Shown: positions 2,536 to 52,860 of the stretch, in pieces
Layout: each line of letters starts with the position of its first letter
How positions within the stretch are numbered: the first letter of the stretch is position 1
Source: Coffea arabica
Taxonomy: Eukaryota; Streptophyta; Magnoliopsida; Gentianales; Rubiaceae
NCBI RefSeq assembly: GCF_036785885.1
Contig: NC_092316.1
Coordinates: 52,089,001 to 52,153,000, forward strand
Length of the DNA stretch: 64,000 nucleotides
Reading direction: 5' to 3'
Position numbers and translations under genes: made by a program
Notes under the pieces: model-generated
What the model saw: only the letters and a program-made list of their open reading frames with translations
Told to the model about the DNA's origin: nothing
Databases searched by the model: none

Positions 2536-3864
2536 GTAACTATTGACATAACTTCAAACTCATTCCCTTTCATAACTCACAGTTTTTTGTATGAGTGTTT
2601 CGATAAATGGACTCTGCGAAGACACTTCAAAAGCCTTCAAACTCATTCCAAAACTTGTTTAGAGTGGATTACTGTAATATGTCATAAGATGTCATATGCA
2701 AAAGTATTCACAAAAAAAAAAACATATCCTTGATAAACAAATATTTTAACACCATATCGATTATTGAAAATTTATTAAACTTACCCTCTAGATTTGGGAT
2801 TACATTAGACTTTCCAATCATCATGAGTACCTATGTTGCCTAGGTTGTGTCTGTCCTTACTACATCCACATAGTTATATCAGTTTACATCTCTCATGTGG
2901 GAAGCTGGCTGTATTACTACATGCCATTAGATGTCATGACCACTCCCGGTTGACTGAAAGAATTGCTGACCCAAGTTTGTCTGACTCCCAAAGGTCCAAA
3001 TTCTCCTAAAGTAATTCCGGTGCTACTAAAACTACCCCTCCATCCACTAATACGGCCTCGTTTACTTGTATGTAGGAGTCCTTCCAAGTCGCATCATTCG
3101 GTCATCCACACCTTGGCCCTTCCCTTGCAGTCCCTATTCCTGTTCCCATTCTCCACTCTCTTTCTTTTCACCTTATCTGTCTGTGCCTTTCTCACCTCCT
3201 TAATCCTTAATCATCCACATTTTACACCACCAAGGAAACTGATATCAATTCACAGTTCAGAAACACCCCAACCCCCACCCACAAAAAACCCCCCAGACAG
3301 GACACAACACAGCACCCATTCCCCCAAAACACACACAACACGCACTAAATTCCATTTTTGCCCCCTGCCTACTTGAAATTTACTTACCCTTTACCCTTCC
3401 CTTAAGTCCCCTTTACCCTTAAAACAAGAAAAAAAACCAAAAGGAGAAGAAACTACTGACAAAAAATTCCAATTGCCCTCTTCAATTCTTTTCCACCCTT
3501 GCCTTTGCCTTGGGCCTTTGTCCCTTCCCCCTTTTCCAATTTTTCCTCTCTTTTCTTCTCTCTCTGATATATAGACGCAACTCAGGAGAAAAGCCCCCCC
3601 TCCCCACCCCACCTAGTATTACAAAAATTTAGTTTATGCCCTTCCCCAAGTCCCTTAATCCATTCTCATTAGTTTTTCTATATGCACTTTTTATGTCTGA
3701 TGGTCATTAGTCCGTTTTAGCTTCTCCTCCGCCTTCTTCTTCATCAACATACATCAACAGTGACTTGGTATTATCTTGGGATTTATTTCTTTCTTTTTTT
3801 TACTGATACAGATATCTTTCTTGATGTTACAATCTTTCTTTGAAAACCCCAAGTGTTTGGTTCA
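2536..3864. other. Spacer and probable promoter/leader of the DDR4-like gene
   Basis: No gene is recognised. From about 2960 to 3620 the plus strand is pyrimidine-rich (C and T runs, CCCTT repeats), as is common in plant core promoters and 5' leaders, so transcription of the next gene probably starts in or just after this zone. An in-frame stop at 3841 closes the frame just ahead of the coding region. Confidence 0.45.
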
Positions 3865-19892: not shown

Positions 19893-20135
19893 TCTTCCCT
19901 AATTCTTCTCTAATGGCTTCTTTTTTTTTTTTGGGTCTTCTTGGGGTCTAGATAATATATACGGCAGCGATGCAAGAAAAAAGAGGGTGAGTTGAGCGAA
20001 GATGACTAAATCCGTAACCAAGGGGGGAAAAATGCAATGAATGAATAAAGGAAATGGTGAGCTGCCGAAGGAGACAAGACTGATGACGCCATCTCGTGGA
20101 TCAGAGTTGTGTTGCGTATCGGTACAAAAAAGTTT
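19893..20135. other. Upstream region of the AAA-ATPase gene
   Basis: This is the presumed promoter and leader of the minus-strand AAA-ATPase. It ends at the target duplication of the foldback element, so that element lies within about 250 bases of the start codon. Confidence 0.4.
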
Positions 20136-20901
20136 GGATTAATTACATTTATCTCCCCTGAGGTTTGATCATATTACCAATCAATCCCTGTAATTTGTCC
20201 AAATAACGGTCTCACCTTTTGAATGATCAAACATTTAACAAAAACCCCCCTTAATGCCGAAAATGCTCTTTTTGAGGCCATATTGCATTAAAAAAGAATA
20301 TATTTTTATTTATTAACCTTCGAGTAATCCAAAAAATAGAAAAACGTTTTTACTTATTATTTTATAAAAATCATATCTTTGCTTTCATAAATAGTTTTGA
20401 ATCAATAATTATTTTAAATCTTAAAAATGAATATTCAAAATTAGATAAATTGAAAGAAAAATAAAAAAGAATCAATTATTTTAAATCCTCAAGTATGGCT
20501 CGAATTTGTGGTTCAAGGCATGTTGCGGAGAGCACAAGGCATGTCTTCCTCAATTTGAACCATACTTCAGGAATTAAAATAATTTCTTCTTTTTTTATTT
20601 TATCTAATTTTTAAGATTTAAAATAATTATTGATTCAAAACTATTTATGGAAGCAAAGATATGGTTTTTATAAAATAATAAGCAAAAATTTTTTTCTATT
20701 TTTTTGGATTGCTTCAGGGTTAAAAAAATAAAAATATGTTCTTTTTTTAATGTAACATGGCCTCAAAAAGGGCATTTTCGGCATTAAGGGGGTTTTTGTT
20801 AAATGTTTGATCATTCAAAGGGTGAGACCGTTATTTGGACAAATTACAGGGATTAATTGATAATATGATCAAATCTCAGGGGAGGTTTCTGCAATTATCC
20901 C
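20136..20901. mobile_element. Long foldback MITE, MULE-like
   Basis: The two halves are near-perfect inverted copies: the left arm (about 20136-20500) reads through TCTCCCCTGAGGTTTGATCA and the right arm (about 20520-20901) mirrors it, with only a short centre near 20500-20520. The outer ends are GGATTAATTACA and GGTTTCTGCAATTATCCC. Both sides are flanked by AAAAAGTTT (20127-20135 and 20902-20910), a 9-bp duplication typical of MULE insertions. A transcript would form a hairpin stem of about 370 bp. No coding capacity is seen. Confidence 0.85.
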
Positions 20902-21204
20902 AAAAAGTTTTGAAGACTCTTCAGCATATGACCGACCGGCCCTTTAAATCAGGACAATGCAACTGCAACTTTTAGCCACCATGTCCGTGCGTGTTTTTGA
21001 CCAATGCTTTCATATTTTAGGGTATCATCTACTCACTTTTGAATCACAATTCCACGATTAGACAAAATGTCATTGTCCTCTATGAATTAATTGGGACAAG
21101 ATAGTGTAATGAAGGCAAAAAATTCATCTTTCCTTCAATAAAATGTCGTTTTCTCCCACAATAACAAGATAGTGACTTTTGCTAACGAATCACCTCTCCA
21201 TGTT

Positions 21205-34999: not shown

Positions 35000-36010
35000 T
35001 CTATATACTTAGCTTTAAATATAACTTGCACAAAAAGGCTTGAACCGTGTTGAGATTTAAGCTTTAGTAGATGAGTTTAGGAGAGACTATTTCACTATTT
35101 GTTAAATGGTTGTTTCTCTATTCATTGTGCAGAATATCAATATCTCGTTTGCTGCATACAAGATGATTAATGAGATACATATGTTGTGATTTGCATATAT
35201 GGCTTATATGCCTGTCCCTTAGTTATTGTTATTACTGGATTAGTGCAGCTGACAAAGTTAGTGATTTGCTTGTTTGGTTTCTCTCTATTTATTTGACCTT
35301 GCATTTGTTTATTGGAATTATTGTTGCTTAGACATTGTTTAAACTCCAAGACCATTAGGGAGTTGTTTTAGTTATAATAGCAGATTTAAAAGTTACCTTA
35401 ATTGCATCAAATTTTAGAATGGATAGATGTAACGATAAACTAAATGCTAAAAATTAACTTTGAAATGAGAGAGGAAAAAAAGATATATGCATCATTATGT
35501 ATTGAACAAAAAGAAAAAAATCCATGAGAAATAACGTCAAACTTCTAATAAGAGGACCATTAGGTAGTTGTTTTAGTAATGATAGCAGATTTAAAAGTTA
35601 CCTTAATTGCATCAAATTTTAGAATGGATAGATGTAACGATAAACTGAATGCTAAAAATTAACTTTTAAATGAGAGAGGAAAAAAAGATATATGCATCAT
35701 TATGTATTGAACAAAAAGAAAAAAATCCATGAGAAATAACGTCAAGCTTATGATAAGTATAAAAAGGTGAAAAAACCACTAGATCTGCTTTTCAAACCGT
35801 CATGAAAAATAATGGTAAGTATATCTCATGCCAGAGGTTTAGTTTAGAAAAATAGTTGATATCGATTAAATACTACCATCATATAATAGCACTATGCTAT
35901 TTATAAAAGTATGGTGCCCTTTCCTCATAATTTTATTTTATTTTTTATAAATTTACTCATTTCACCACACAGGTTACCATTCCCGCGCTGAGCGCTGGCT
36001 TATCCCCTAG
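35000..36010 (+). mobile_element. Helitron-like element (3' end seen, 5' end tentative)
   Basis: The 3' end has a GC-rich short hairpin, CCCGCGCTGAGCGCTGGC, at about 35982-35999, followed by TTATCCCCTAG and then a T. That is the hairpin-CTAG/T arrangement known for plant Helitrons, which insert between A and T without duplication. A possible 5' end is the TC of TCTATATACTTAGC at 35000, preceded by A. No replicase or helicase is present, so it would be non-autonomous. The 5' boundary is uncertain. Confidence 0.5.
35349..35760 (+). repeat. 206-bp tandem duplication
   Basis: Two adjacent copies with a period of 206 (GACCATTAGG at 35349 and 35555) are almost identical. Both lie inside the Helitron-like segment. 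Confidence 0.88.
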
Positions 36011-48603: not shown

Positions 48604-48612
48604 TAATATTAA

Positions 48613-48820
48613 GAGCAAATTATCTGGCTGGCCATTAAACTTTTGCCATCGTTGAGTTTTGGTCACTCAACTATTAAAAGTCTGGTTTTGGCCACTCAAA
48701 TATATAAAGTTAAGATATGAGGCCATTCTGTTAGATTTAGCCGTTAAATTCGTCGATATATCCGTTCGCGCGATTTCCAAGACAAAAGGTAGGGTTAATT
48801 TAGGAATTCAATATAGCATT
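48613..48820 (+). repeat. Left terminal inverted repeat of the Pack-MULE
   Basis: It mirrors 50008-50214. Matching words include CCATTAAACTTTTGCC, GTTGAGTTTTGGTCACTC, AGTCTGGTTTTGGCCACT and GGGTTAATTTAGGAA. Divergence grows inward. Confidence 0.9.
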
Positions 48821-49100
48821 CAATGCTTCTCTCAAAAATTATCGTTCTTCTTCCTGCCCCTCTTCAAATCTTCGTCAGACCCTTTTCATCCACCGCAGGC
48901 ATCACTCCTGCAACGCCACCACCGGTATAAAGCTTGAAATTAGTTTCCTGTCTGGAAAATGCTTGTTGAAAATTAGGATAATTCAGGAAGAATAAAATGA
49001 AGGATTTGGCCAGAATTGTGAAGGCTCAGACTTCTTGCTATCTTCCCAAGCCAGTTAGTGGATCGAGAGAGCTCCGCCCAAAGAGTGCCTACAGCCCGTG
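48821..49100. other. Pack-MULE interior, origin unassigned
   Basis: This lies between the left TIR and the TCP frame. It may include 3' flank captured with the TCP gene (AGAGTGCCTACAGCC, TTCTTGCTATCTTCC), but I cannot assign it. The open frame starting in the TIR at 48659 runs into it and shows no recognisable domain. Confidence 0.4.
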
Positions 49101-49766
49101 CTAGCCCAAGATCCCTCCAACATCTTGTGTTTTCGGTATCTGCATGCCACCACCACCACCTCCTACTTTGAATTGCTTATTTGGAGGAGAAGGGGAAGTT
49201 TCATCTGCGCCGTCTCCTTGGCGGCCGCTTGATCCTTCCTCTTTAAACAAATCTTCCCTATATCTTTTCCTTAAATAACTCTCTGTGGCATCTTGCCCAC
49301 CGCCGCCACCGCTATCTCCGCCACCGTCTCCGCTGGGAATCGCTTCCGTCATTTGATTTGCTGCTAACAAATGCTGCTGCTGTTGCTGAAAACCCAACAT
49401 GTGGGAAAACCCTTCCTCATAGGGGTGGTGAGCTAAGGCTAGCGCGCTGTGGAAAGAATGAGGAGCTGATTTTGAAGGAGGAGCAGAGAGAGTGGAGCCG
49501 TTGCTCCTGACGGATATGTTGAGGGTTGAAATGTTAGCCGGGATGGTTCCCGTGCCAGTGGCGGCGATTATGGCTGGCTCGGCTTGCTGTAGAAGCCACT
49601 CAATTGTCTCGCCGTCGGACTTGTGACCTAGCTCTCGAGTCAACTGGAAAATCCTAGCTGCACAGGCAGCCGGCATTCGGATACGCCTGCCTCGGCCATC
49701 AACTTTGGTATGGCGGTCCTTTGTGGATCTCTTGGGTGGCTGCTGCTTAGGGTGGATTGGTTTCAA
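49101..49766 (-). pseudogene. Captured class I TCP transcription-factor fragment (TCP7/TCP21-like)
   Basis: The open frame spans 221 codons. It has the class I TCP domain ([20 protein letters not shown], then [20 protein letters not shown] and [20 protein letters not shown]), and further on [15 protein letters not shown], a stretch I associate with TCP7/TCP21-type proteins. There is no stop or shift within, which suggests recent capture or constraint. However, the frame has no ATG before the TCP domain: it opens with TTG just after an in-frame stop, at the junction with the LRR fragment. The first ATG lies inside the basic region (IRMPAAC), so normal translation would lose DNA contacts. The true 5' part of the gene was left at the donor locus. 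Confidence 0.85.
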
Positions 49767-49984
49767 TAGCCCTATTGACTAGGAGAGTCAGCATTCCGGC
49801 AGCTTTGACTCTGTTGCAGGAAGGACTACTTGGAGTTCCATACCATGACTTCCATGGCAATCTCCCAATTGATGTGGGTCTCACCCTACCAAATCTGAAA
49901 CTAATACCTGTTACGGAAAACAATTTCTCTGGAATCTTTCCCACTTCAATCACCAATGCTTCTGGGCTTGAGGAAGGAACTTGA
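49767..49984 (+). pseudogene. Captured LRR receptor-kinase ectodomain fragment
   Basis: The plus-strand frame contains GNLPIDVGLTLPNLKLIPVT followed by ENNFSGIFPTSITNASGLE. This is the leucine-rich repeat pattern of plant LRR receptor kinases of the At3g47570/FLS2-related type (usually NLPxDIGxTLPNLK...NNFSGxIPxSxxNAS). Only about two repeats are present, with no signal peptide, membrane segment or kinase. It abuts the TCP fragment head-to-head and ends near the right TIR. Confidence 0.75.
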
Positions 49985-50007
49985 GGAACTTGCCCTAAAG
50001 AAGAAGA

Positions 50008-50214
50008 TGCTATTTTTAATTTCCTAAATTAACCCTGCATTTTGTTTTGAAAATCGTGCAGACAGACAGATCGGTGAATTTAACGGCCAAATCTAACAGA
50101 ATGGCTACGAGTTTTAACTTTATGCATTTAAGTGGCCAAAACCAGACTTTTAATAGTTGAGTGACCAAAACTCAACGATGGCAAAAGTTTAATGGCCAGC
50201 CAGATAATTTGCTC
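50008..50214 (-). repeat. Right terminal inverted repeat of the Pack-MULE
   Basis: This is the inverted partner of 48613-48820. Its outer edge, GATAATTTGCTC, is followed by TAATATTAA. Confidence 0.9.
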
Positions 50215-50541
50215 TAATATTAATAATGAAAGTGATGAGTGAGCTCTTCATCTCTCTTTCTTCTTCTTTTTCTTTCTAACATAAAAAGGTATCTTAGCCT
50301 TTTTTTCAAACCCAATTCAAGATTTTAACTTAGTTTTCAAAATTTAACGTGTTCAGATGCATTTTGATAAACCAAAATAAAATATATGAGATGGGGTGAC
50401 ATTTTGAATCTCTTAGGCAAAACTTATTTCAAAAAAGAAAAAAAGCGATCGTACTTTTCACTCGTTACTTAACATGATAATATACACTAAAATGTATCAC
50501 CATTTAACGGACTCGCACTTCAGAGTATTAAAAATTTAGTA

Positions 50542-50856
50542 CTCCCTCCGTCCCATTTTGATAGTCTCATTTCTTTCTTCACATAGTTTAAAAAAAAAGT
50601 AGTTAATTTTGTTTGAAAAGTAAATTTAGATTGCTATTTTTCTAAAATACCCTCACATTAAATATGGTACAACTTTATGGGAACTTGAATTGATGGTAAA
50701 AAAAGAATCAACTCTCATTAAATGGGGTAGGTTTATAGTAATAAGGATATTTTAGGAAAATTAAAATATAACTACATTCTTAACAATGAAAAAATGGATT
50801 ACATTTTGAGACAGACGAAAAAGGAAAACGGGACTATCAAAGTGGGACGGATGAAG
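50542..50856. mobile_element. Stowaway-like MITE
   Basis: The ends are CTCCCTCCGTCCCATTTTGA and its inverted partner CAAAGTGGGACGGATGAAG, flanked by TA (50540-50541 and 50857-50858). It is 315 bp, non-coding and foldback-like. Confidence 0.85.
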
Positions 50857-50858
50857 TA

Positions 50859-51645
50859 CTTAACAATTCAACAATTTAATAAATCCAAACTTCATATTCC
50901 GTATTACGATTTTCAAACTTCAATTTTATCGAACACGCTCCTTTTTTTTTTGTTTTTTTAGTAGTGTACATATTATTATTACCGAAACAGTAAAAGTAGG
51001 GAATGTAGGTGTAATTTTTAAAATTAAAGGAAAACTTGGTGCTGTAGTCAGAAACCTTGAGTTACCACTAAAGAAAAGATGATTACTTTCCGCAGTCAAG
51101 GGGAACCCATTCCCTCGTCCTCCGCCCTCGGCGCACAATACAACAAAAGTAGATCACATCTCCAGCAGCCTCACCACAAAGCTCCCATCCGTTGTTACTC
51201 TCCCCGCCGCTAATAGCACACCACTCCCCACAAAACACAAAAACGCACCATATTCTCCAACTCAAAAACTGTTCGCTATCCCCTTCCATTCCCTCTCTTT
51301 TGTAGATAGAATAGAAGAAGAAAACTACTACATCTATCCATTCATCATCCCATCCTACCGCTCTACCCATTCTTCATATACTGACCAGTGGCCTCTATGT
51401 TCTTCCAGTAGCCTCATCATCATATTTTTAGTAGTCTTTAATAGTGGTATTGCACTGTCCTCCTACTAGGACTTAGGGGGGAGTTTTAGGACCCCAACAA
51501 TTCCAGCCAAAAAGCCCCCAAAAACAACAACAACTAAACGCCACTTCGCAAACTCAAACCCAAAGGTGGTGCAACTTATCATCATCAGCAGCAGCTCTAA
51601 GTTCTAGCTAACTAAGGGAACCAAAAGCCAAAAGTAGTATCCTCC
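50859..51645. other. Promoter and leader of the dynein-light-chain-domain gene
   Basis: No gene is recognised. The stretch becomes C-rich from about 51100. The last 170 bases (ACAACAACAACTAAAC, CATCATCAGCAGCAGC) look like a plant 5' leader with CAA-type enhancer-like repeats. Confidence 0.4.
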
Positions 51646-52860
51646 ATGGATCCCACTCCCCTCAAAAAGCACCCGACAAAATCCACCACCGCCGCCGCCT
51701 CAAAAATGCCTCCTCCGGATCCCATTCTTGCTGCCCCCCCTTCCTCCACCGCCACCACCATCCAAAACATATCCAGCCACTTCGCCAAGTTGTATGCGAA
51801 TCACAAGTTTCTTGCTGCTTCCTTAAAAGCCTCCTCACATCCACACGCTCATTCTCATCAAGAAGAAGAAAAGGGTCTCAAAGATGATTCCTCTGCTTTA
51901 GACAACTCCTGCGTAGCTTTGACCAAGTCAAGTAGCCAGCACGGAAGAATTCATCGTGGAGCTGCACCGGCAGATTTGGCCTCGGCAAATGAAGAAAGCT
52001 ACCGCACGAAAACCAAGGTTAAAGAAAAGGACGACAGGAAGTATTCTCTGGTTAATGTCAAGAAGAAAAAGCCCCTGCCTGATGCTCCTCCAGCTCAGAA
52101 GGCTTTATTAGACGGGCATAAATCTAATCTTAGAATCAAGAAATCATCGTCAGGAGCAAGAGGAGGAGCAGCCCAGAAAAAGGAGGAGGAGTTCTATGAC
52201 GGGAGGAGAGGCGTGAAGAAAGCGTATGGCTTGATGTCGAGGAGTCTTGAATTGGAGAAACCTAATCAAGCCACGCCGTCGTGTGAAATGAATAGACCAT
52301 GTATTTCGCTTGCGGTGAATGGCAGAAGGACGTCATTTTGCTGCTCGCGAGCTGAGTTGGCTGACTTCTTTTGTTGCGCCGGCGTCAAGGTTGTGGCTGT
52401 TGACATGCCGCCCTTTATGCAGATTCACGCTGTCGATTGTGCTAGAAAAGCTCGTGATAGCTTGGAAAAATTCACTTCCAAGACTCTTGCTTTTACCCTC
52501 AAAAAGGTACTCCTGCCTGCTATAGCATCTGTCGAAAGAGCAATCAGTGATCATTGTGGGCTTTTTGGTTTAGGTTCTGTGATGCGAGGCTTTCCTCTTT
52601 TTTTTTGTTTTTTTTTCCGTTTTGGGGGATCAATTCGCTTGCTGATCAGCAGGCACGCTGGTTCTTGAATTGGTTAGTCTCAGTTCTGATTTTCTTGCTT
52701 GCAGGAATTTGATGGGGTTTATGGACCAGCCTGGCACTGCATCGTAGGGACCAGTTTTGGTTCCTTCGTGACACACTCAGTAGGTGGCTTCATGTACTTC
52801 TCAATGGATCAGAAACTATACATCCTCTTGTTCAAAACAACTGTACAGAGGGCTGATTGA
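51646..52860 (+). CDS. Dynein light chain (DLC1/LC8) domain protein, plant long form, 2 exons
   Basis: Exons: 51646-52506 and 52705-52860 (GT-AG, phase 0), 338 residues. The start, CCTCCATGGATCC, is the first in-frame ATG. The first 240 residues are low-complexity (Ala/Pro/Ser, then Lys-rich) with no named domain. The C-terminal 90 or so form an LC8-type domain: [60 protein letters not shown] and LYILLFKTT, matching the LC8 core (DMPxxMQ, KEFDxxYxPxWHCIVG, FGSxVTHE). The last exon begins exactly at EFDGVYGP, the usual family position. Plants lack cytoplasmic dynein motors, so such proteins act as dimeric hubs in other complexes; the partner here is unknown. The Glu usual after VTH is Ser. Confidence 0.9.

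Follow-up and report, generated by a model that had tools for sequence, protein, structure and literature searches.

Element boundaries, content and surroundings

The window, a 64,000-nucleotide stretch of Coffea arabica chromosome C7 (C7:52089001-52153000), contains an element of 1602 bp at 48613-50214, flanked on both sides by TAATATTAA and ending in long terminal inverted repeats (TIRs). Its parts are as follows.

48604-48612, no strand: left target-site duplication (TSD) TAATATTAA, present as a single copy at the empty homeologous site
48613-48819, plus strand: left TIR, 207 bp, which appears to group with TIRs of L011, L012 and L019 (support 93/90, below the 95 mark)
48820-48921, plus strand: internal backbone common to the family A elements described below, after which the element lacks sequence that L010 and L012 have; source not found
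48924-49017, plus strand: remnant of a C13/C14 locus, ~94 bp (95-column alignment, 93.7%)
49017-49114, plus strand: mitochondrial-DNA-like block 1, matching C9:24.3-24.9 kb (101-bp alignment over 49017-49117, 97.0%; the exact match ends at 49114)
49101-49778, minus strand: open frame of 225 codons without a stop, spanning the TCP piece, with its first ATG within the basic region
49113-49747, minus strand: 635 bp of TCP8 coding sequence, captured in the opposite orientation to the LRR piece
49745-49848, plus strand: mitochondrial-DNA-like block 2, from the same C9 source locus (104 bp, 96.2%)
49842-49972, plus strand: captured LRR receptor ectodomain fragment, 131 bp (120/131 to C6:17753816-17753946)
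50007-50214, minus strand: right TIR, 208 bp, which groups with the family B right TIRs of L045, L046, L047 and L052 (96/90)
50215-50223, no strand: right TSD TAATATTAA

The boundaries, the perfect 9-bp duplication and the inverted ends of about 207 bp had been proposed from the letters alone, and they prove exact to the base (207 and 208 bp). The two TIRs align over 208 columns, 183 of them identical, with 24 mismatches and one 1-base gap, and score 289 against a best of 25 among 200 shuffled pairs. The same reading had called the first 90 or so bases almost identical: columns 1-84 match without exception, and the remaining 124 columns carry every difference (Fisher p ~1e-6).

A TSD of about 9 bp is characteristic of Mutator-like elements (MULEs), and here it accompanies long TIRs. 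The interior had been read as free of transposase, and in agreement none of the 21 internal stop-to-stop frames of at least 40 codons matches such a family in Pfam; the filler includes host gene fragments with counterparts elsewhere that are free of TIRs. Moreover, the element has transposed as a unit after capture, with the same content found on C20 beside another TSD and the corresponding site on C8 empty. With its TSD, TIRs, captured host fragments and lack of a transposase, the element is a Pack-MULE, the identity first given to it. Helitrons have neither TIRs nor a TSD, and this class is ruled out by the presence of both. A retroposed gene copy has a poly(A) tail, intron loss and no TIR; the TIRs rule this out for the element as a whole, and intron loss is no criterion for the TCP piece, because the donor TCP8 gene is single-exon. 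Rfam gave no match in the 64-kb window.

Other repeats share this stretch of DNA. A ~330-bp repeat at 50527-50858 adjoins the element and matches sequences outside the window mainly at 84-88% (query 50224-51224, best 40 of 3036), and seems to belong to a very abundant MITE-like family. Positions 52074-52500, part of a dynein-light-chain-like neighbour gene, recur at 96-97% in six other places and at the C8 homeolog, as if spread by a mobile element. Two nested inverted repeats at 20125-20912 (125 bp at 89% and 98 bp at 95%) could be a fold-back element. Direct repeats, 79-82% alike, lie ~1967 bp apart at 131-464 and 2098-2432, and a 203-bp tandem duplication, 96% alike, occupies 35350-35757.

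Sources of the captured DNA

The sequence-only reading had recognised fragments of two host genes, a class I TCP segment and an LRR receptor segment, and had suggested a search for their donors. Both segments are there, and donors of the TCP segment and relatives of the LRR segment were located; the count of two falls short, as the filler draws on at least four sources, the others being mitochondrial-DNA-like sequence and the C13/C14 locus.

The TCP8 fragment corresponds approximately to residues 141-353 of the 540-aa Coffea eugenioides TCP8-like protein P0122, and its 225-codon frame contains a class I TCP domain (PF03634, E 5.4e-33), the nearest solved structure being that of TCP15. The donor genes lie on C3 and C4, each with its TCP8 frame intact in a single exon (538 and 544 aa, respectively) and with 4 differences between them over the 633 sites compared; the fragment differs from the C3 gene at 12 of 635 positions, and from the C4 gene at 9 of 635 plus a 9-base gap. 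The C4 frame shows no substitution against P0122, only repeat-length gaps totalling four residues, whilst the C3 frame shows one substitution against P0002, and both of these protein kin extend beyond the breakpoint of the TCP piece in the element. At codon 73 the element encodes alanine, like P0123, P0124 and P0126, where C3 has threonine and C4 serine; this single codon hints that the capture predates the separation of the two subgenome lineages or is of roughly the same age.

On the plus strand, the frame at 49751-49984 finds matches among LRR receptor ectodomains of known structure, those of FLS2 and At5g25930 included, though Pfam assigns it no family, and at the DNA level only 49842-49972 (131 bp) is receptor-derived. 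The closest LRR relatives outside MULEs, 89-92% alike, cluster on C6 and C5, and weaker matches occur on C15 and C16. The best of them, on C6, has an LRR ectodomain frame that stays open for at least 463 residues in the portion covered; at 92% likeness it does not pin down the exact donor. In a search that gave two candidates and reaches only proteins of similar length, an 865-nt ENA contig (P0121) was found to carry a chimeric LRR-region frame identical to that of L013 except for the first residue, and ending at the same residue; a relative of the element is therefore present in public data.

Both mitochondrial-DNA-like blocks match one locus on C9, at which no TIR of the element was found. 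Neighbouring tRNA-Pro(TGG) and tRNA-Trp(CCA) genes lie at this locus, along with a short mitovirus-polymerase-like frame (PF05919, E 2e-10), and the GC content of its first 3.5 kb is 43-47%, against 39.5% in the window's flanks. Pfam recognised no mitochondrial genes in seven other frames of the locus. The tRNA pair, the mitovirus-like frame and the GC content presumably fit a nuclear copy of plant mitochondrial DNA, and the two-block sequence is probably mitochondrial in origin. This region (L048, C9:21900-26900) lies close to the end of the chromosome, and a zinc-knuckle frame comes after its mitochondrial-DNA-like part. The source of the remaining piece is a locus on C14 with a partner on C13: no TIR end was seen in the 2 kb of the C14 locus examined, and Pfam returned nothing above its cut-off in five frames of L055. 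As a control, 20 shuffles of the element against five source loci gave a best score of 29 bits. All the source loci found (C3/C4, C5/C6, C9, C13/C14) lie off the window's own chromosome, C7.

Two candidate features were rejected. The region 48982-49104 was considered as a third coding capture; it has no Pfam match, and genome searches resolved it into the C13/C14 piece and mitochondrial-DNA-like sequence. A 253-bp gap in the mitochondrial-like source was considered as a removed intron, but it lacks a GT start and an AG end, and is flanked by a 6-bp repeat.

Relatives in the genome and the history of the TIRs

The genome searched comprises 1,197,963,845 bases in 131 contigs, and matches on chromosome pairs such as C3/C4, C5/C6 and C7/C8 look homeologous. 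Since only the best candidates were scored (for example, the best 40 of 557), copy numbers are lower bounds. Other copies with the same TIR had been put forward as something to look for, and they were found, with TSDs of their own. We compared 22 elements, the window copy included, which come down to 20 distinct insertions once the duplicates L015/L017 and L050/L051 are each counted a single time. Of the 22, 18 are flanked by perfect TSDs of 9 or 10 bp (those of L018 and L021 are weaker because they sit inside TAA repeats), L019 has a 9-mer with one mismatch, and L015, L017 and L052 have none.

A second full copy, L009 on C20, has the TSD AATTTTTAA and differs from the window copy by 16 mismatches in 1602 positions and a 16-bp indel. 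L009 was considered as the homeolog of the window insertion and rejected: beyond short simple repeats its flanks have no alignable similarity to those of the window, and the true homeologous site, on C8, is empty. Deletion derivatives of 1225 bp, differing by 0-3 bases, number at least five copies at four sites; three of them (L013, L014 and L016) have different perfect TSDs and unrelated flanks with 0-1 mismatches between them. The other two, L015 and L017, lie within 4001 identical bases at C9:43153500-43157500 and on C10, which look homeologous; each is a 1225-bp element with no TSD, and the identity could reflect either homeologous exchange or an assembly effect. The TCP8 patch is whole in the window copy and L009, and carries deletions in the five 1225-bp copies.

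Other relatives hold different parts of the filler. Family A (L011, L012, L018, L020, L021 and L022) carries ~707 bp of the C13/C14 locus, with no match to the TCP8, LRR or mitochondrial-like sources. Family B, at least seven copies including a duplicate pair (L045, L046, L047, L049, L052, L050 and L051), has LRR and mitochondrial-like blocks and no TCP, in the order LRR bases 1345-825 (interrupted in L050 and L051), mitochondrial-like sequence, then LRR from base 747 (744 in L049). In all seven, the outer ends of the mitochondrial-like patch fall at 3012 and 2423, with variable internal losses and 371 contiguous bases retained in L050 and L051; given these shared ends, the patch probably entered once, as ~590 bp, and replaced 77 bp of LRR sequence. 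One family B member, L046 on C19, measures 2869 bp and exceeds its kin by some 1.3 kb, owing to extra sequence inserted within the mitochondrial-like patch. In L010, on C5, the left half is that of family A and the right half that of family B, the two meeting at a 1-bp overlap; L010 has the LRR piece and the backbone, and 79 bp of mitochondrial-like sequence at the place of TCP8. L019 has only its TIRs and ~290 bp in common with the element.

A tree of 38 TIRs was built from 19 of the 22 elements, with L014, L015 and L051 omitted as duplicates of L013, L017 and L050. In it the window's two TIRs appear to group with different MULE subfamilies, the left-TIR support of 93/90 being below the 95 mark, and the TIRs of four family A elements (L018, L020, L021 and L022) form a separate group. 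Because left and right TIRs fall in different groups, the step at column 84 seems to be divergence inherited from two parents whose outer ends were alike. Nor is the flawless outer stretch of the window copy a general feature of these elements. L013, L014 and L016 carry 4/84 outer and 26/96 inner mismatches within their own TIR pairs, despite 0-1 base of difference between copies; outer mismatches number 4 in L009 and the 1225-bp copies, 10 in L010 and none in L020.

What, then, dates the element? Near-identity of the TIRs had been taken as an argument for recent movement, and here the conclusion stands where the argument does not: as the TIRs group with different subfamilies, their similarity gives no date, and recent movement is supported instead by an empty site and near-identical copies. 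An empty site reading a single TAATATTAA had been suggested as something to look for, and one exists on the homeologous chromosome C8, where the sequence aligns across the insertion point with the joined flanks at 274 of 304 positions and holds no element; a 3-bp TAA length difference lies alongside, and C8 has separate insertions close by (~0.9 kb and 0.15 kb). The element was therefore most likely inserted after the progenitors had split, an event that PMC11018527 places at 4-6 million years in the passage concerned, the alternative being clean excision on C8. With L013, L014 and L016 separated by 0-1 differences in 1225 bp, that branch moved very recently.

How the element may have been assembled

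We favour, with a probability of about 0.92, the view that this non-autonomous Mutator-like Pack-MULE grew by serial patching and then spread. An ancestral MULE would have taken up ~730 bp of an LRR receptor ectodomain gene, and the ~590-bp mitochondrial-like piece would have been copied into this filler in place of 77 bp. The right half of the resulting element would then have become linked to a left half from a related MULE carrying a C13/C14 fragment, and in the hybrid a 635-bp inverted TCP8 piece would have replaced part of the mitochondrial-like patch. Transposase presumably supplied in trans by an autonomous MULE may have produced the window copy and the C20 copy, and a 1225-bp deletion derivative would have spread very recently. 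This order assumes that L010 and family B never contained TCP8, and L010 indeed holds sequence of the mitochondrial-like source at the TCP8 position, as expected of a pre-capture state. Weighing against serial patching are the left-TIR support of 93/90, the separate grouping of four family A elements' TIRs, the missing TSDs of L015 and L017 and their identity over 4 kb, the additional insertions near the C8 site, and an LRR donor that is not pinned down.

The pieces were likely acquired through repair of breaks in the element, copying unrelated templates at very short matches by gap filling or fork switching, models that are described in the capture discussion of PMC8277862. At the five capture or hybrid joints the exact overlaps are 2, 1, 2, 3 and 1 bp (sum 9, chance p 0.019), and with the 6 and 4 bp at two internal deletions the seven joints sum to 19 (p 4e-5), both values from a simple equal-base model; the capture-joint overlaps are short and exceed chance only weakly. 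Overlaps of 5 and 7 bp suggested by BLAST at two joints shrink to 2 and 1 bp by exact-match reading. Nested replacement of filler, off-chromosome sources, one inverted piece and short overlaps together fit break repair with template switching.

Could the filler instead reflect the fusion of neighbouring insertions, as described for Pack-CACTA in the model section of PMC8903248, in which a stretch of chromosome between two MULEs becomes mobile through the outer TIRs once the inner ones have decayed? Hybrid character speaks for this, as the window's TIRs group with two subfamilies and L010 joins an A left half to a B right half. However, the pieces match loci on four sets of chromosomes (C3/C4, C5/C6, C9, C13/C14), are nested, with one inverted and each replacing earlier filler, and a comparison of the element with itself reveals no TIR-like remains between the two TIRs. 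Fusion can account for the hybrid step, not for the nested patches, and we regard it as unlikely for the whole.

It is much less probable still that the element is a host gene, or an exon-shuffled product under selection, such as a dimer-forming TCP decoy without a full basic region. The TCP frame is intact over 225 codons, free of stops and frameshifts, in both the window copy and L009; three of six copy-specific substitutions are silent, as are four of the five at sites where both copies differ from both donors; and the 865-nt ENA contig, a possible transcript, has an LRR-region frame like that of L013. Yet an open frame needs no selection here, because the capture is only 1.4-1.9% from its donors. 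In addition, the other three copy-specific changes alter the protein, including an L to Q within the TCP domain, little of the frame survives in the 1225-bp copies, and the first ATG falls inside the basic region; we see no sign of host function. That the TIRs and 9-bp repeats result from misassembly, or form an inverted repeat by chance, has next to no probability, as no evidence in its support was found, and both the perfect 9- or 10-bp TSDs of 18 of the 22 elements and the homeologous site without the element contradict it.

The element can be set beside known systems. A clean eudicot example joining a transcription-factor domain and a receptor ectodomain had been thought worth following; the claim that a eudicot case is special is weak, since eudicot Pack-MULEs are tabulated in PMC3310237 (tomato 220 and Arabidopsis 46, with rice at 2853 and maize at 276) and in PMC9055812, whose counts include 153 candidate loci in the eudicot Thlaspi arvense. 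Pack-MULEs are already known in eudicots, and the interest here is the recorded assembly history and the organelle-like patch. Like the Pack-MULEs of rice, maize, tomato and Arabidopsis, the coffee element is a non-autonomous MULE with long TIRs and host gene fragments; unlike them, it combines at least four nested sources, one probably mitochondrial, with TIRs apparently of two subfamilies, and its relatives at apparent earlier stages persist in one genome. With the animal Pack-TIRs treated in part of PMC8277862 it shares short microhomology at joints (median 2 bp there), and with Drosophila Ssk-FB4, from the same account, an increase to many copies once capture had taken place, those of Ssk-FB4 being flanked by different TSDs of 9-10 bp. 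Those animal elements mostly capture nearby DNA (59.8% from the same chromosome), whereas the coffee sources lie off C7 and captures are repeated. Hybrids of related insertions and stepwise gain of fragments, as in Zm-Pack-PIF cluster 18, are also reported for Pack-CACTA and Pack-TYPE elements in the relevant part of PMC8903248; those belong to other superfamilies, and capture is proposed there for DNA between neighbouring insertions. Among the open-access papers searched, no title or abstract opening announces coffee Pack-MULEs, or TCP genes or mitochondrial DNA in Pack-MULEs, although full texts may differ.

How plant MULEs acquire gene pieces is treated as unsettled in the portions of PMC13317346 and PMC8277862 that address it. 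Breakpoints can be read rather than guessed in coffee, because apparent pre- and post-capture relatives exist in one assembled genome. We lean slightly towards the broader proposition that a single genome keeps readable stages of Pack-MULE growth, with repeated nested self-patching that includes organelle-derived DNA, and with hybrids bearing TIRs of two subfamilies that are still mobile. If so, break repair with template switching would be favoured over fusion of neighbours as the source of plant Pack-MULE fillers. As this case makes plain, identity between an element's two TIRs is a poor clock for MULEs; some Pack-MULE copies in this genome look very young.
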